NCBI RefSeq assembly: GCF_900200035.1
Contig: NZ_FZTC01000052.1
Span: 62,001 to 126,000, forward strand
Source: Klebsiella grimontii
GTDB lineage: Bacteria > Pseudomonadota > Gammaproteobacteria > Enterobacterales > Enterobacteriaceae
Direction: 5' to 3'
Length of the DNA: 64,000 nt
Shown piece after piece: positions 5,328-17,441 of this stretch. The notes below the pieces were generated by a model, which saw only the letters and a list, made by a program, of their open reading frames with translations, was not told where the DNA came from and did no database searches. Position numbers and translations under genes: made by a program. The number at the start of each line of letters is the position of its first letter. Positions within the stretch are counted from its first letter, which is position 1.

Positions 5328-6761
5328 TTACAGCAAGCGTTGATAAAGTTCGCGGTAAGAATTCGCGGCAACCTGCCAGCTAAAATCCATATTCATCGCC
5401 TGACGCTGGACGTAGCGCCAGAGCGATGGGCGCGACCACAGAACGAACGTGCGTCGAATCGCCCGCAGCAGCGACAAGGCGTTGCTATCTTCAAACACAA
5501 AGCCGGTAGCCAGGCCATCGGCGAGGTTCTCCAGCGAGCAGTCGGAAACGGTGTCCGCCAGGCCGCCGGTACGCCGCACCAGCGGTAGCGTGCCGTACTT
5601 CAGGCCGTACAGCTGGGTTAAGCCGCACGGTTCAAAACGGCTCGGCACCAGAATCACATCGGCGCCGCCCATAATGCGGTGCGAGAAGGCTTCATGGTAG
5701 CCAATCTGTACGCCGACTTTGCCCGGATGTTCAGCCGCGGCGGCAAGGAACCCCTCCTGCAGCACCGGATCGCCCGCCCCCAGCAGCGCCAGCTGGCCGC
5801 CCTGTTCAAGCAGGCCCGGCAGCGCTTCAAGCACCAGATCCAGCCCTTTCTGGCTGGTCAGACGGCTGACAACGGCAAACAGCGGCGCTTTGTCATCCAC
5901 CTTCAGCCCCATGGCGATTTGCAGCTGGCGTTTATTCTCCGCTTTTTCTTCCAGCCGATCGCGGTCATAGCGCGCGGCCAGCAGCAGGTCGCTTTCCGGA
6001 TTCCAGATATGGTCATCCACCCCGTTGAGGATCCCGGAGAGGCGGCCCTCGTGCTGACGCTGACGCAGCAGCCCTTCCATCCCATAAGCGAACTGCGGCT
6101 CGGTTATCTCGCGGGCATAGGTCGGGCTGACCGCCGTAATATGATCGGCGTAGTAGAGACCAGCCTTCAGAAAAGAGATTTGGCCGTTAAACTCCAGGCC
6201 ATGAACGTTATAGAACGACCACGGCAGTTCAATGTCGTTCATATGCCACGAATAGAACATCCCCTGGTAGGCCAGGTTATGCACCGTAAAGACCGACTTA
6301 GCCGGGTGGCCGCGCGCCGCCAGATAGGCCGGCGTCAGGCCCGCATGCCAGTCGTGGGCGTGAACAACATCAGGGCGCCAGAAAGGATCCAGGCCGCAGG
6401 CCATCTCGCTGCCTACCCATCCCAGCAGCGCAAAGCGCAGCACATTGTCGGTATAGGCGTGCTGATTGGTATCGTGATAAGGGCTCCCTGGCCGATCGTA
6501 GAGATGCGGGGCATCAATCAAATAGATGCCCACGCCGTTAAAGTGCCCGAACAGCAGAGTGATGCGCCCGGCAAAGGTCTCCCGACGCGTCACCACCTGC
6601 GCATCCGTTACGCCACGACGAAGATCGGGAAACGCGGGCAGCAGCACGCGCGTGTCGACGCCCCCTGCGATTTGCGCTGCAGGCAGCGCGCCGATCACAT
6701 CCGCCAGTCCACCGGTTTTTAACAGCGGGAACATCTCTGAACATACATGTAATACCTGCAT
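5328..6761 (-). CDS. glgA: Glycogen synthase GlgA
   Basis: GT5-family ADP-glucose:alpha-1,4-glucan glucosyltransferase of 477 residues, the E. coli length. KTGGLADV (K15) near the N-terminus is the ADP-glucose-binding loop, and the C-terminal GT-B half carries [19 protein letters not shown]. Translationally coupled to glgC: its ATG overlaps the glgC stop in TAATG, and the AGGAG inside the end of glgC serves as ribosome site. It uses the ADP-glucose supplied by GlgC. Confidence 0.98.
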
Positions 6762-8056
6762 TAGCGCTCCTGTGGGTACCCCAATTTCCGCAGCATGTCG
6801 CGGGTGACCAGCACGATACCTTCCTCCGAGCGGTAGAAACGGCGTGCATCCTCTTCCGCGTTCTCCCCAACAACCATACCTTCCGGGATCACGCAGGCGC
6901 GGTCAATAATGCAGCGACGCAGGCGGCACGAACGGCCAACCCAAACCTCTGGCAACAAAACTGCCGAATCAATGTTACAGAATGAATTCACCCGCACGCG
7001 CGGGAACAGCACCGACTGCACGACCACCGAACCAGAGATAATACAGCCCCCGGAGACCAGCGAGTTCAGGGTCATCCCGTGGCTACCCGAGCGGTCCTGA
7101 ACGAATTTTGCCGGTGGCAAAGGTTCCATATGGGTGCGAATCGGCCAGTTCTGGTCGTACATATCCAGCTCCGGGGTCACCGAAGCCAGATCGAGGTTGG
7201 CTTTCCAGTACGCTTCCAGGGTCCCAACATCGCGCCAGTAGGGTTCAGACTGCGGATCGGACTGTACGCAGGAGAGCGGGAAAGGATGTGCATAAGCCAT
7301 GCCAGCTTTAGTGATTTTCGGGATGATGTCTTTACCAAAATCGTGGCTGGAGCTTTCGTCGTTATCGTCGTCTTCCAGCAGCTCATAAAGGTAATCCGCA
7401 TCAAAGACATAGATACCCATACTCGCCAACGATTTGCTGGCATCGCCCGGCATCGCCGGAGGGTTAGCCGGCTTTTCGACGAAATCGATAATCTTATCGC
7501 TCTCGTCCACCGCCATCACCCCGAACGCCCGTGCTTCTTCAATAGGCACCGGCATACAGGCGACGGTGCAACGCGCGCCTTTTTCGACGTGGTCGATAAG
7601 CATCCGCGAGTAGTCTTGTTTGTAAATATGGTCGCCCGCGAGGATAACGACGTACTCCGCCTTGTAGCGACGAATGATGTCGAGGTTCTGCGTCACCGCG
7701 TCCGCCGTGCCGCGATACCAGTTTTCGCCCTGCATCCTTTGCTGGGCGGGCAGCAGGTCAACAAACTCGTTCATCTCTTCATTGAAGAACGACCAGCCGC
7801 GCTGGATATGCTGCACCAGAGTATGCGATTGATACTGGGTGATGACGCCGATACGGCGAATGCCTGAGTTAATACAGTTAGATAACGCAAAATCGATAAT
7901 GCGGAACTTGCCGCCAAAATGGACAGCAGGTTTCGCGCGTTTATTGGTCAGATCCTTCAGACGGGTACCACGTCCCCCGGCAAGGATCAGCGCAACGGAT
8001 TTGATCGGCAACTGACGCGCCAGCATCAACGGATCGTTCTTTTCTACCCCAACCAT
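6761..8056 (-). CDS. glgC: Glucose-1-phosphate adenylyltransferase GlgC
   Basis: Makes ADP-glucose from ATP and glucose-1-phosphate, the committed and allosterically controlled step of glycogen synthesis. The nucleotidyltransferase signature [18 protein letters not shown] is near residue 30, and a C-terminal left-handed beta-helix region ([15 protein letters not shown]) follows. Start: ATG at 8056 with AAGGAG gives 431 residues and the N-terminus MVGVEKND, equivalent to E. coli MVSLEKND. The open frame extends upstream to 8158 but that part lacks family similarity. Gap of 80 nt to glgX. Confidence 0.97.
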
Positions 8057-8136
8057 AATTAACTCCTTTTTTACTCCCCAGCTTGCCTGCCCTTCTCGCC
8101 GCGCCGTCGCTTCGAGACCAACCGGAAGCCTCGAGG

Positions 8137-10113
8137 TTACGACCTTTGAAATACGCACACTCCGTGCGCGGGCCCATGCCAGACAGCCATAGTGACCGGA
8201 TTATCCTCTCCGGCGAAAGGTGGAATGGCGCGCCATTCCCCCGCAGGTAAAACCATCTCCGCCACCTCGGCGGTGGCGTTGAGCGCCATCAGCCAGCGAT
8301 CGGACAATATGATCTGCATACGCGGCGCACCGTGCTGCCATTCATCGGCGGACAGCGGCTGCGCATGTTGGTTTAACCAGCGAACGCGGCCGTCTCCCTC
8401 CTGCCACCAGCGATTCTCGGTTAAAGCCGGAATACGCTGGCGCAGATGAATTAACGCGGCGGTGAACGCGGTCAGCCCGCGGTTAGTATGGTTCCAGTCC
8501 AGCCAGGTCAACGCATTGTCCTGACAGTAAGCATTATTGTTGCCATGCTGGCTGTGACCGTGTTCGTCACCCGCCAGCAGCATCGGCGTTCCCTGCGCCA
8601 GCAGCAGCGTCGCAAGGAGCGCGTGAACGCTGGCACGACGCCGTTCAATCACGGCAAGACTCCCTTCTAATCCTTCTATACCATGATTGTTGCTGTAGTT
8701 ATTGTTAGTCCCATCGCGATTCTCCTCCCCGTTCGCCTCATTGTGTTTCTGATTGAAACAAACGCAGTCGCGCAGGGTAAAACCGTCATGGGCGGTGATA
8801 AGATTCACCGCCGCCGCAGGTGCTCGTCCGTGACGCTGAAAGACGTCGCTGGAGGCGGCAAAACGCTGAGCGAAGTCGCCCAGCGAGACACTCTGCTGCA
8901 GCCAAAAACGACGCCCGGTATCGCGGAAATGGTCGTTCCACTCAGCGAACAGCGGCGGAAAATTCCCCACCTGGTAGCCGCCGGGGCCGATATCCCAGGG
9001 TTCCGCGATCAGCTTCACCTCCGCCAGGCGCGGATCGTTACGGATGGCCTCGAACAGCGGCGCATCCTGACGAAACGCCGGCGTCCGCCCCATCACCGAG
9101 GCCAGGTCGAAACGAAAGCCGTCGACGTGACACTCATCGACCCAAAAGCGCAGGCACTGGCGGGCATACTCCACCACGCCGGGGTGGCTGAGGTTGATGG
9201 TGTTCCCGCAGCCGGTCCAATTGTGGTAATCACCGTCTTCCCTGATCCAATAATAGCTACGGTTATCGATTCCGCGCAGGGAGAAGGTCGGCCCTTCCAG
9301 GTCTATCTCCGCGCTATGGTTGAGCACCACATCAAGGATCACTTCAATGCCCGCCGCATGCAGCGCTTTAACCGCATCGCGAAACTCATTTAACGCCTGT
9401 TCCGGTGCGCTGGCGTAGCGAGTGTCGAGGGCGAAAATCGCCAGCGGGTTGTAGCCCCAGTAGTTGCTTAACCCCATCCGCTGAAGGCGCGGTTCGCTGG
9501 CGAACTGCGCCACCGGCATTAACTCTAGTGCAGTAATGCCAAGCATGCGGAAGTAATCGATCATCACCGGGTGACCGAGCGCTTTGTAGGTGCCGCGGAT
9601 ATTCTGCGGTAGATCGGGGTGCAGATACGTCAGCCCCTTGACGTGGGCTTCATAAATCACCGTCTGGCCCCACGGCGTGCGCGGCGGCTTATCGCCGCGC
9701 CAGTCGTAATGCAGGTCGATCACCCGCGACTTCGGCGCTATCGCCGCGCTGTCGCGGTTGTCGGGAGCGAAGTCGCCGCCGTGCAGACGCTCATCGTCAG
9801 GCAGCCCGCCCGCCACCTGATGGCAGCAGGGGTCGAGCAGCAGCTTGGCCGGGTTGAAGCGGTGTCCCTGCGCCGGGTCCCAGGGCCCGTGGACGCGATA
9901 GCCGTAGCGCAAGCCAGGCCCGGCATCGGCGAGCCAGCCGTGCCAGATATCGCCGCTGCGCGTGGGCATATCGACGCGCCGCTCATTGCCCTGGTCGTCA
10001 AACACGCAGAGTTCCACCCGCTCCGCATGGGCGGAAAAGAGCGCGAAATTCACGCCCTTACCGTCGTAGCTGGCCCCTAAAGGCGCGGGCTTTCCTGCCG
10101 TGAGTACGATCAT
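8137..10113 (-). CDS. glgX: Glycogen debranching enzyme GlgX
   Basis: GH13 isoamylase-type enzyme that removes the short branches left by GlgP. The protein has 658 residues (E. coli 657). An N-terminal CBM48-like domain ([22 protein letters not shown]) precedes a TIM barrel with VDGFRFDL (nucleophile Asp) and [16 protein letters not shown] (acid/base Glu); [10 protein letters not shown] carries the third acidic residue. The ATG at 10113 overlaps the glgB stop as ATGA, which decides this start over an in-frame upstream one at 10134. Confidence 0.97.
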
Positions 10114-13847: not shown

Positions 13848-13970
13848 ATGGTGAAGGGAATATTTTCCGCCGCTATTTTATTGATCCGGATTATGGATTT
13901 CAGCAGAAATTCGGTTGTTTTACCTTTCCTGACCAAACCCGACAAACCCAGGCGTGGCAAGGGTTTATGA
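13848..13970 (+). pseudogene. yhgN: Remnant of yhgN (MarC family membrane protein), 5' end only
   Basis: A 40-codon frame divergent from asd reads MVKGIFSAAILLIRIMD and then drifts. This aligns with the E. coli YhgN start (MNEIISAAVLLILIMDPLGN), with about 12 identities over the first 18 aligned positions by eye. It then loses the family sequence and stops at 13968-13970. Intact YhgN has about 197 residues. Position and strand are those of yhgN in K-12, next to asd. The remaining 39 bases before the dprA-like gene, and the whole 13651-13847 stretch, show no other gene. Confidence is limited by the short match. Confidence 0.6.
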
Positions 13971-14008: not shown

Positions 14009-15214
14009 TTAGCGGGATGCAAAGCTTATCTGATACCGCTGCGGATCGGTTAGCTTGTTAATAACTTTCTCCTGCTCGGCTCTAACCAGCCACTCACGTA
14101 GCTGTGAAGGGAGCACGTTCAGCTCCTCGCTCAGCTTTTGCAGAGAAACCGGCTGTTGTGCCAGCCGACGCATTTCAGCCAGAAAGAGCTGATAAAACGG
14201 ATCAGAAGAGGTGTGATACCCCGCGGGCGATTCATAAAGCGAATATTGCTCGACGCTTTGAGTCAACAGGGCTGAGGGGGGGTTAGGCTGCGGTAATAAA
14301 AGCTGCTGCGGTTCAATATCGAGGGCATCTTCACTACACCAGGCGCCTCCCAGTTGAACCAGAAGCGCATTCGATGATTCAGGATCATCCGAGGGCTTTA
14401 CCCAGACGGTTCCCCAGCGATGTTTTAGCGCCTCTTTTGCACCGGTGATGGTTCCACCTTTAGTACCCGCATGGACAACCAGCGCGGCTTCGGCCAGGGA
14501 GTAAATATATCGGTTTCGCGCCATCGCATTCGCAACGCTGAAGCCACCCTCCGGATAAAAAGGTGAGATGAGCACCAGCCTGCCATCCATAAGCCCCTTA
14601 CGCCACTTTGCCGAGGTTGAAGCCCGCAGCAGGCTATCCGCCAGCACGCCGGTCGCGCTTCCTCCTGCTTCGAGCGCAGAGATCATGGCACACTCATCAA
14701 TGCCGCGGGCCCCGCCGGAAACAATATTCACCCCTTGCGCTGCGGCTTTGCTGGCGAGCTGTTGCGTAAAATGCAAATCATCAGGAAGCGCCGCGCGTGA
14801 ACCGACAACCGCCAGCCCGCCGCTTTGCAGCAATGCACGATTACCACAGCCAAAAATGACCGGCGGCGAATCATTTTTTAGCGTTGCTTTTAAACGGCAC
14901 GGATAATCCTCGTCAGCGCGCGTGACCACCCATAACCCTGCCCGCTGCCATTTATCTAGCGCCAGCGCCAGGCTATGACCGCGTGCTAACAGTCCGATAA
15001 TCCGCGTAACGGGAATTTTCGGATCCTGCCAGGCCATTAACCGAATACCGACCTCTGGCGTTAATAGATCCGCTGGCGACATGCGCTGATGCCTTAACCA
15101 AAGCGCCAGCCTTCCCCACTCAGCAAGGCTTAACGGCTGGTGCTCATGCGCCTGCCCTGCCGAAAAGTGACAGGTGAGTAAAAGCGTGGCTTGCGCGATC
15201 GCGGTAAGGTTCAT
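14009..15214 (-). CDS. DprA/Smf-like SLOG-fold protein, partner of the RecQ-PRTase gene
   Basis: 401-residue protein with a DprA-type Rossmann (SLOG) domain. VGSR is at 137-140, SGGARGIDE at 166-174, MARNRYIYSLAEAALVV at 231-247 and GTKGGTITGA at 250-259, in the order and spacing of DprA. An N-terminal helical region (1-95) and a C-terminal winged-helix-like tail (about 345-390) flank it. Housekeeping DprA lies elsewhere in enterobacteria (beside def/fmt), so this is probably a paralogue. Its ATG overlaps the helicase stop as ATGA, which fixes the start at 15214 rather than an upstream ATG. DprA proteins load RecA on single-stranded DNA; whether this one does is unknown. Confidence 0.9.
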   Translation of the reverse strand: MNLTAIAQATLLLTCHFSAGQAHEHQPLSLAEWGRLALWLRHQRMSPADLLTPEVGIRLMAWQDPKIPVTRIIGLLARGHSLALALDKWQRAGLWVVTRADEDYPCRLKATLKNDSPPVIFGCGNRALLQSGGLAVVGSRAALPDDLHFTQQLASKAAAQGVNIVSGGARGIDECAMISALEAGGSATGVLADSLLRASTSAKWRKGLMDGRLVLISPFYPEGGFSVANAMARNRYIYSLAEAALVVHAGTKGGTITGAKEALKHRWGTVWVKPSDDPESSNALLVQLGGAWCSEDALDIEPQQLLLPQPNPPSALLTQSVEQYSLYESPAGYHTSSDPFYQLFLAEMRRLAQQPVSLQKLSEELNVLPSQLREWLVRAEQEKVINKLTDPQRYQISFASR

Positions 15215-17310
15215 CCATTTTTCACCGAAGTTGATGCAAGGGCTACCGGATACACTTTTTCGCATCCGGCCTGACGCAGCAGTGCTGCAAGTACGGTCAT
15301 AGTCCATCCAGAGTCAATGAGGTCATCAACCAAAAGAACAGGACCATCCGGCAGCGCTGAGTTTACCTGAAAAACGCCATCCAGATTCTGGCACTGATGA
15401 TAGCGGTTTTGCTGTAATTTCTGCGGCTGATTGTCCCTGACCTTAACAATGGCATCAACAAAAGGAAGTTCTAAAAGTTGCGCCAGACGCCGGGCAAAAT
15501 CAGGAACAAGCTCGGGGTGCTGTAAAGAAGGCGCACAGCAAACCCAACTCGGCGGCGGATTTGGTGCCCAGCGGTCAGAAATCATTTCAGCCAACCCGGC
15601 AACCAGACTATCGGAAAAAAAGCCACGATGTTTATCTCTCGCGACTTCCGCTCCCCAACCGGAATCTCCCCATCGTGATAAAACGCGCCCTTCTTCAGCG
15701 CGTAGCGAATCCGGAAAATTCCCCTGAAAGCCATAGGTACTGAAAGCCCCAGCAGCAACCTGCCTGTTCAGTATCAGCGGGAGATCGGCACGCTGAAGAA
15801 AGAGATTTGCCGACTCAAGCAAAGAACGATCTTCACGATAATCTAAAAGATGATGCTTTTGGCAGGAACTACATTGCCCGCAACGTTCTGTTGTTGGTTC
15901 ATCCAGCGCGCGTTGGATAAACGCCATTTTGCATTCATCCGTAGCGATATACTGCCTGACTTCCTGCCATTCAGTCTCCCGCTGCCGGGTGAGATGATCA
16001 ATACGCTGCTGGTTGAACGCAAATGGTACAGCCGTGCGATACCAGCGCCGGTTCTCCAGCAACACCGGAGAAGGGTATTCAACACTCAGTAATTTGATCG
16101 TTTTTTCAATTTGACCGTAGCGCAGATTAGTTCGCGCTTCAATATCGCGAAGCGTCAGCCCATCGCTGCTTTCAAGCACCTGTAACACCTCAGCAATCTG
16201 ACTTTGCGTTGGGAAAGCGGACTGGCGAAAATAATCATGAATCGCGCTATCTTCTTCTCCCGTCAACAGGATCCCTGATGCATGGTCTATTCCGCGCCCA
16301 GCGCGCCCTACCTGTTGGTAGTAACCCACGATCGACCCCGGAGCCTGATAATGAATGACAAAACTTAAATCCGGTTTGTCATAACCCATTCCCAATGCGG
16401 TCGTCGCCACCAGCACCTTAAGCTCATTACCCTGTAGCGCATTCTCCAGATATTCTCTGGTCGCGTTGGTATCATTAAACCCTGGATGGACCACGCCGCT
16501 ATAGTAGGCCTGAGCATTAATAGCGTTTTGCCTGAGCCATCGAGCGACCAGATCGGCATCTCGCGTCGTTAAGGTATAAACGATGCCAGCGCCGGGAAAT
16601 TCGGGGATCGTGCCCGCCAGCCAGGCCAGCCGTGAAGGCTGGTCGCGCAAAGTCAGTACATCCAGCGCCAGGCTTTTACGCGATAACGTTCCTCGTTGAA
16701 TGACGATGTCGCCAATTTGCTGTTGGATATCAGTCACGACTCGCTGATTCGCCGTAGCCGTGGTACCCAGAACAGGTGTATTAGCGGGTAGCTGACGCAG
16801 GATATCCAGAATACGTCGATAATCAGGGCGGAAATCATGCCCCCAGTCAGAAATACAGTGGGCTTCATCCACAACCAACATCGAAATGCGATCCCCTACG
16901 GGCGCTAAAACCGATTGAATGAAATCCTGATTCGCCAGCCGCTCAGGTGAAATTAATAAGCAATCGAGTTCGCCGGCGACAAGCTGTCGGGTGATAAGCA
17001 GCCACTCATCCCTGTTCGTTGAATTCAGCGTTTCAGCCCGAATGCCCAGCCGTTCCGCAGCCAGCACCTGGTTTCGCATCAAAGCCAGCAGGGGTGAAAC
17101 TATTATTGTTGGCCCCCTACCGCGATCGCGGAAAATCTTCGTACTAATAAAGTAGACTGCGCTTTTCCCCCACCCAGTACGCTGCACAACCAGCAACTTT
17201 CGCCCATAATTAACTAAAGTATCAATAGCTTCCCATTGCCCTTCGCGAAAGCTTGCAGCAGGATTTGCCAGCATCCGTTGCAAAAGCTGCTCTGCGCCGA
17301 ATTTGTCCAT
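15211..17310 (-). CDS. RecQ-family helicase fused to a C-terminal phosphoribosyltransferase-like domain
   Basis: 699 residues. The helicase core has Walker A TGWGKS (45-50), DEAH (148-151), GTTATA (182-187) and motif VI QQVGRAGRG (332-340). A RecQ-type zinc cluster follows (C460, C477, C480, C483). Residues 500-650 show no domain I recognise, and the C-terminus has a PRPP-loop motif VLLVDDLIDSGWT (658-670), as in ComF-like phosphoribosyltransferases. The usual RecQ HRDC domain is absent. Start: ATG at 17310 with AAGG nine bases upstream; an in-frame GTG at 17316 sits too close to that site. First gene of a two-gene operon with the DprA-like gene. Spot counts near 52% GC are lower than in the glg genes. 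Confidence 0.92.
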   Translation of the reverse strand: MDKFGAEQLLQRMLANPAASFREGQWEAIDTLVNYGRKLLVVQRTGWGKSAVYFISTKIFRDRGRGPTIIVSPLLALMRNQVLAAERLGIRAETLNSTNRDEWLLITRQLVAGELDCLLISPERLANQDFIQSVLAPVGDRISMLVVDEAHCISDWGHDFRPDYRRILDILRQLPANTPVLGTTATANQRVVTDIQQQIGDIVIQRGTLSRKSLALDVLTLRDQPSRLAWLAGTIPEFPGAGIVYTLTTRDADLVARWLRQNAINAQAYYSGVVHPGFNDTNATREYLENALQGNELKVLVATTALGMGYDKPDLSFVIHYQAPGSIVGYYQQVGRAGRGIDHASGILLTGEEDSAIHDYFRQSAFPTQSQIAEVLQVLESSDGLTLRDIEARTNLRYGQIEKTIKLLSVEYPSPVLLENRRWYRTAVPFAFNQQRIDHLTRQRETEWQEVRQYIATDECKMAFIQRALDEPTTERCGQCSSCQKHHLLDYREDRSLLESANLFLQRADLPLILNRQVAAGAFSTYGFQGNFPDSLRAEEGRVLSRWGDSGWGAEVARDKHRGFFSDSLVAGLAEMISDRWAPNPPPSWVCCAPSLQHPELVPDFARRLAQLLELPFVDAIVKVRDNQPQKLQQNRYHQCQNLDGVFQVNSALPDGPVLLVDDLIDSGWTMTVLAALLRQAGCEKVYPVALASTSVKNG

Positions 17311-17401
17311 AATCACGCGCCTTTTCAGATGAATTTATGCGCATTTAGCGGGAAGGGAAAAGAAACGAAGATGACTGAAATCAAGAAATGATGCTAAAAA
17401 G

Positions 17402-17441
17402 GAAAGGAAAGAGTAGCGCTGCGAGCGTGCTCGTAGCGCTA
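17402..17441 (-). terminator. Strong hairpin after gntU, probable terminator
   Basis: A 13-bp stem with one wobble pair (17414-17426 with 17429-17441) and a 2-base loop lies 14 nt after the gntU stop. On the minus strand it is followed by a T/C-rich stretch (CTCTTTCCTTTCC) rather than a pure T-run. It separates gntU from the RecQ-like operon downstream; the 17311-17400 interval should hold that operon's promoter, which I could not define. Confidence 0.6.

Follow-up and report, generated by a model that had tools for sequence, protein, structure and literature searches.

A PsyrTA/RqlHI-type toxin-antitoxin gene pair beside gntU in Klebsiella grimontii

The closest described relatives of the locus studied here are PsyrTA, of Pseudomonas, and RqlHI, of Escherichia coli. 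RqlH and RqlI were equated with their orthologues PsyrT and PsyrA by Russell and Mulvey (2015, PMC4670107), in whose account of E. coli F11 RqlH is genotoxic through its phosphoribosyltransferase (PRTase) domain and RqlI binds and restrains it. RqlH without RqlI is reported there to cause SOS induction and filamentation, and either loss of the PRTase domain or the substitution D663A to abolish growth inhibition and SOS induction. According to the same report, RqlI rescues RqlH toxicity, its residues 1-320 sufficing, and the two genes form one operon; Klebsiella oxytoca M5aI is named as a carrier of the pair, which E. coli K-12 MG1655 is reported to lack. A second source calls PsyrTA an abortive-infection system and describes it as commoner in phage-resistant strains of Pseudomonas aeruginosa (11 strains, 81.8% phage-resistant; PMC10855318). 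We analysed a pair of overlapping genes, rqlH and rqlI, in a 64,000-nucleotide stretch of Klebsiella grimontii DNA (NZ_FZTC01000052.1, positions 62,001 to 126,000; hereafter the window), and compared it with these systems.

Identity and domain structure of the pair

The PADLOC model for PsyrT matched RqlH of the window end to end (residues 7-700, 7e-302), and the model for PsyrA matched RqlI in the same way (residues 1-396, 2.9e-157). Identity to the F11 proteins was 70% for RqlH and 57% for RqlI, compared with 96% for gntU and 93% for asd, divergence being much greater in the pair than in these neighbours. In a tree of RqlH (82 rows) the window and F11 proteins were sisters, with a Shimodaira-Hasegawa-like approximate likelihood-ratio (SH-aLRT) support of 100. 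The residues mutated in F11 all have counterparts in the window protein (K51 = K49, D150 = D148 and D665 = D663, window residue given first). The window genes are orthologues of F11 rqlH and rqlI, and the pair is one already described, under the names PsyrTA (Pseudomonas) and RqlHI (E. coli), as a toxin-antitoxin system. Its sequence has the characteristics of this family: a RecQ-type helicase fused to a C-terminal PRTase domain, with the helicase and phosphoribosyl pyrophosphate (PRPP)-loop residues in place, and a DprA-like partner directly downstream on the same strand.

The two reading frames overlap. That of rqlI covers 14009-15214 (minus strand, 401 amino acids), and that of rqlH covers 15211-17316 (minus strand) when read from a GTG codon, or 15211-17310 from the ATG taken as the start in the initial annotation. 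RqlH residues are numbered throughout from the GTG at 17316. The features of the pair are:

15211 to 17310, minus strand: rqlH (psyrT), RecQ-type helicase with C-terminal PRTase domain (toxin)
14009 to 15214, minus strand: rqlI (psyrA), DprA-like (SLOG) antitoxin, 401 amino acids
15211 to 15214, minus strand: ATGA overlap of the rqlH stop and rqlI start
16732 to 17244, minus strand: DEAD/DEAH helicase domain 1, RqlH residues 25-195 (Pfam PF00270)
16294 to 16593, minus strand: helicase C-terminal domain, RqlH residues 242-341, with motif VI YYQQVGRAGR (Pfam PF00271)
15862 to 15933, minus strand: RqlH cysteine cluster C462, C479, C482 and C485, resembling the RecQ zinc-binding module
15238 to 15498, minus strand: PRTase domain, RqlH residues 607-693 (PF00156, 34.9 bits, cut-off 26.3)
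15301 to 15339, minus strand: PRPP loop VLLVDDLIDSGWT, RqlH residues 660-672
14399 to 14950, minus strand: DprA/SLOG Rossmann domain, RqlI residues 89-272 (PF02481, DNA_processg_A, 3.6e-43)
14027 to 14200, minus strand: RqlI C-terminal winged-helix-like domain, residues 339-396 (AlphaFold2 model)

The Pfam models DEAD, Helicase_C and Pribosyltran all matched RqlH above their cut-offs, and PF16124 (RecQ_Zn_bind) fell below its own (19.5 against 25 bits). Domain 1 carries the Walker A motif GWGKS at residues 48-52 and DEAH at 150-153. The AlphaFold2 model of RqlI had a predicted local distance difference test score of 92; its best match in the PDB was DprA (3maj), and ShosA (8zva) was also matched. 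In this model the C-terminal domain connects through a low-confidence linker, and its predicted winged-helix-like nature is our reading of the order of helices and strands. The reading frames and Pfam matches bear out the ATGA overlap, the RecQ-type helicase with PRPP-loop domain and the DprA-like partner of the initial annotation. The lower guanine-plus-cytosine (GC) content suspected there was likewise found at third codon positions, with values of 0.49 for rqlH and 0.57 for rqlI, where eight neighbouring genes had 0.65-0.74. A scan for promoters and terminators gave site counts no higher than those in shuffled sequences.

Other assignments were considered. RqlH is not the housekeeping RecQ, scoring 272 bits on TIGR01389 and 206 bits on NF008279, where the equivalog cut-offs are 640 and 1015 bits. 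Nor is RqlI canonical DprA, with 101.8 bits on TIGR00732 (cut-off 191) and 74.6 bits on NF008007 (cut-off 495). An undescribed system, as first proposed, is ruled out by PADLOC, which has its own PsyrT and PsyrA models that match here, and by the study of the E. coli orthologue in PMC4670107. What had been taken for a new operon thus proves to be already on record as a toxin-antitoxin pair, and it shares its site with the E. coli copy that was studied.

Chromosomal site and distribution

In F11 the gene order is gntU-rqlH-rqlI-yhgN-asd, and the window stretch shows the same order of housekeeping genes. Presence of the pair at this site was patchy. Among E. coli genomes, 5375 of 5426 matched the F11 stretch from gntU through rqlHI and yhgN to asd, and 1620 covered at least 80% of it, which was taken as presence of the pair at the site. 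In 28 other E. coli genomes listed, the flanks were joined without the pair in 27 and broken by an insertion sequence (IS) element in one. Of 19 further species in the genus, none carried the pair, and all had gntU and asd adjacent, with neither rqlHI nor yhgN between them. Universal presence in close relatives, which the initial annotation had held to speak against a conflict role, was thereby excluded. A search with RqlH against 99 related genomes gave matches in 96. They were full length in G000, G045 (64% identity) and G083 (59%); in G030 the helicase part was 63% identical to that of the window, and in the other 92 the best matches were at 1.2e-57 or weaker and confined to the helicase part.

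Occupied and empty sites were compared. F11 and the empty strain D8 were identical through the gntU stop codon and divergent just beyond it. Towards asd, the window becomes homologous to the empty sites again (nine genus mates aligned) no more than a few tens of bases from the rqlI stop. These comparisons suggest that the pair may be gained and lost through its homologous flanks. Two further features of the site are:

17415 to 17440, strand not assigned: hairpin between gntU and rqlH (sequence comparison)
13852 to 13898, plus strand: relic of the yhgN 5′ end, 81% identical to F11 yhgN over 47 bp (E 2.6e-7), a marker of the site and not part of the system

A similar hairpin follows gntU in F11 (L003 7865-8004), and the empty sites compared carry a different one. 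The hairpin thus looks, by sequence, as if it had arrived with the pair.

The initial annotation had the pair occupying the place of yhgN. Neither the window nor any of the 19 genus mates has yhgN in the gntU-asd interval; the window and 18 of these mates (L064-L082 except L070) do keep its 5′ relic. In 20 whole genomes of the genus, the only relatives of YhgN found were 26-34% identical. Because yhgN is also gone from the pair-free genus mates, all but one of which keep the relic, its loss was separate from insertion of the pair. Replacement of yhgN by the pair is ruled out by these searches, together with the F11 order, in which the pair stands beside an intact yhgN.

Mobile carriers were also searched. 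A phage-borne origin found no support, as tblastn against 50,697 phage records gave no match at an E-value of 1e-60 or better, the range requested. Of 72,556 plasmid records, 18 matched; none covered 80% of the pair, and the best reached 63%.

Conservation and neighbourhoods in relatives

The family was further examined in 80 relatives, the best of at least 592, drawn from many phyla. Some results cover subsets of 41 or 38 of the 80 relatives or 41 of 76 RqlI homologues. The RqlH alignment contained 84 rows. Translation stops, shown as X, occurred in five of the 80 (one each in L110, L138, L141 and L149, fifty in L128); an indel or frame shift accounts for those in L128. L128 and L153 were left out of the tree. 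The Walker A motif was identical in all 83 rows with letters at this position. PRPP-loop residues L662, D664, D665, S669, W671 and T672 were conserved in 82-83 of 84 rows, and cysteines C462, C479, C482 and C485 in 68-70. A tryptophan stands in the PRPP loop (DDxxDSxWT) and another in Walker A (GWGKS, positions 17161-17175), each in 83 of 84 rows with the remaining row gapped; the two are useful signatures of the family.

The Pfam Pribosyltran model matched 35 of 39 RqlH members, and a profile of the PRTase part, built from the window protein and 38 relatives, matched PDB entries for PRPP synthetases at about 1e-5. Sequence profiles therefore support a putative PRTase domain. In fold searches with the whole RqlH, the 50 matches listed by Foldseek and by VIA-align were RecQ-type and other helicases; good coverage in VIA-align extended over residues 1-493, so that these searches bear on the helicase part.

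Pairing was nearly constant. Using a model built from four rows, an RqlI homologue was found directly downstream of rqlH in 76 of the 80 relatives; the four without one were L138, whose sequence ends 87 bases past rqlH, L146, L150 and L176. RqlI was short, at 323-345 amino acids, in 16 of the 70 proteins with usable ends (L117, L119, L120, L127, L136, L155, L159-L161, L163-L166, L183, L184 and L187; L149, cut by a contig end, was excluded). Matches of the short forms end ahead of the C-terminal part, in agreement with the sufficiency of residues 1-320 in F11.

Several copies lay inside defence operons. Type I restriction operons held the pair between hsdS and hsdR, the gaps measuring 12-19 bases, in Vibrio furnissii, Providencia heimbachae and Shewanella surugensis (L109, L115 and L162, 8001 to about 11440 in each). 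The order hsdM-hsdS-rqlH-rqlI-hsdR also occurred on an E. coli conjugative IncF plasmid (NZ_OX030731.1; L190 7962-11479). In two Pseudomonas genomes and one Verrucomicrobia genome (L111, L113 and L145), the pair stood between HmaB and HmaC. Nested copies thus occur in at least six of the 80 relatives, counting hsd and Hma genes, which were those looked for. The Hma operon of L111 also holds a nested Septu pair (PtuA, PtuB).

Directly beside the pair, relatives carry HsdR, HsdS, HmaB, HmaC, BrxL, MkoA and a ZorD/DpdE-like helicase; among them are HsdR in L112, MkoA with a Ppl-like protein in L133, BrxL in L167 and the ZorD/DpdE-like helicase in L163, and HsdM lies one small open reading frame (ORF) from the pair in L128. 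In Serratia microhaemolytica (L108, 7804-7959) the first 52 residues of HsdM are encoded about 42 bases upstream of rqlH, the rest being absent. In Stutzerimonas stutzeri (L116, 713-886) residues 910-967 of the 969 of HmaB occur, again about 42 bases upstream of rqlH and with the rest absent, and the contig ends 712 bases up. These scraps give the impression of a host operon that disappeared while the pair stayed. Following rqlI in G083, the next gene (L094 10456-11616) matched the candidate defence model PDC-M72A at 1.2e-159.

For counts, the nearest ORFs of at least 150 amino acids within 1.5 kb on each side were taken, 123 in all. Defence families recurred among them, each in few ORFs (REase_I in 4 of 58, HmaC in 2 of 65); family counts cover the first 25 of 70 and the first 25 of 123 families. 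A control of 58 ORFs beside recQ gave 18 families, all helicase-type (DpdF, PsyrT, C3a193, BrxH) and each in at most 6 of 58. Six of the 58 were helicases of 610-727 amino acids with a DEAH motif, taken as recQ itself. The control consisted of short flanks in Enterobacterales genomes and is hence unmatched by phylum. At the limit used, no match was found for 10 of 10 neighbouring proteins in one set, 3 of 9 in another, and the upstream neighbours in L093 and L094.

Such nesting is not in itself new, since examples in type I restriction operons have been published for TgvAB (PMC11411939) and DarTG2 (PMC12255303). Our incomplete coverage of the literature, in which the nesting of other systems was found, gave none for PsyrTA; no claim of priority is made.

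Proposed function and comparison with known systems

These data suggest, with a probability of roughly 0.8, that the pair works as a toxin-antitoxin-like module of the PsyrTA/RqlHI kind, in which a RecQ motor and a PRTase effector are restrained by DprA-like RqlI. The RecQ motor of RqlH would move on and unwind DNA, and the fused PRTase domain would be the toxic effector, probably using PRPP on DNA or nucleotides and so damaging DNA and inducing the SOS response. RqlI, a relative of DprA that probably binds single-stranded DNA and may sense it, would bind RqlH and keep the effector off. Abnormal DNA, from phages, plasmids or broken replication forks, would disturb this balance, the PRTase would act, and the affected cell would stop growing. 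Similar logic has been proposed for a DprA-PRTase pair in a report that cites rqlHI in support (PMC9122126). Toxicity dependent on the PRTase, rescue by RqlI, interaction of the two proteins and a single operon were demonstrated by others for the F11 orthologue. Orthology, conserved active residues, the shared site, near-constant pairing and the defence neighbourhoods of relatives were observed here; that the window copy is active, its chemical target, its trigger and any anti-phage effect, we infer. A defence role for the family is supported because copies are nested inside restriction and Hma operons. The initial annotation was right in kind in proposing a ShosTA-related conflict module with a PRTase effector and DprA-like antitoxin.

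Several observations weigh against this reading, and some of them bear on other explanations. The window pair is adjoined by asd and gntU, with no defence genes, such that the link to defence neighbourhoods, the lack of which the initial annotation held to count against a conflict role, is seen in relatives and not beside the window copy. In G030 (L095, about 5673-8296), the rqlH frame has 445 amino acids, stopping short of the zinc and PRTase parts, and an intact-looking rqlI comes directly after it; either this form truly lacks the toxic domain or the assembly is at fault. When PsyrTA was deleted in E. coli NILS69, phage infectivity reportedly did not rise, and overexpression of this PsyrTA in K-12 is reported to have given a growth defect and no detectable protection (PMC12409345). 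This would suit a module for DNA repair or replication-fork maintenance, the toxicity without RqlI being an artefact of half a repair machine. Such a role is further favoured by the RecQ fold over RqlH residues 1-490 and by the beneficial DNA function that Russell and Mulvey proposed, alongside SOS, filamentation and mutator effects without RqlI (PMC4670107). It is nonetheless unlikely, given the patchy presence in the genus and in E. coli, the copies nested in restriction or Hma operons or carried by a conjugative plasmid, and the separate RecQ-like (619-amino-acid frame) and DprA-like (389-amino-acid frame) genes in the genome.

The F11 double deletion, for which the report describes no detected cost (PMC4670107), likewise counts against the main reading and speaks for a selfish addiction pair of no benefit to the cell, as do the toxin-antitoxin behaviour in F11 (PMC4670107) and the plasmid-borne copy. 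Addiction alone is disfavoured because it does not predict the chromosomal site shared by this genome and E. coli, or the copies within defence operons, and we consider it quite improbable. A part in DNA uptake, where the helicase, a ComF-like PRTase and DprA would echo the competence genes comF and dprA, is very improbable. The PRTase part did give weak matches to ComF and GntX (about 2e-5), RqlI has a DprA fold, and a competence link is also discussed in PMC4670107; however, that report describes transformation as not detected in the authors' isolates, a DprA-like gene other than rqlI lies elsewhere in the genome (G000:C2), and RqlI falls far under the dprA equivalog cut-off.

Within the toxin-antitoxin-like reading, a more specific role is a tentative and rather doubtful idea. 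RqlHI could be a second-line module that travels in DNA-targeting defence operons and reads their DNA ends, single strands or failure, upon which the PRTase fires; the copy beside gntU, in this genome as in E. coli, would be a stand-alone descendant of a passenger of this kind. The interest of the family extends beyond the window copy, to the nested copies and the PRTase substrate. Nested copies and the natural short forms of RqlI offer concrete handles for testing the role of the family.

Among described systems, F11 RqlHI resembles the window pair in gene order, overlapping genes, domain content, the site after gntU and the active residues, the difference being that F11 has yhgN intact where the window keeps a relic. 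PsyrTA of Pseudomonas syringae is alike in the end-to-end PADLOC matches of both proteins; its host is another, and the window copy is known from sequence.

ShosTA shares the DprA-like antitoxin, RqlI matching the ShosA model (8.1e-27) as well as ShosA structures. RqlH scores on PsyrT, and the ShosT model was absent among the 25 of 42 matches listed. ShosT itself we take to be a PRTase without a RecQ helicase. Membership of ShosTA was rejected on the helicase fusion and the far better score of RqlI on PsyrA. DpdF and other defence helicases have the RecQ-type helicase core in common with RqlH; the best DpdF match reached 3.7e-87 over residues 21-381, against the end-to-end match of PsyrT.

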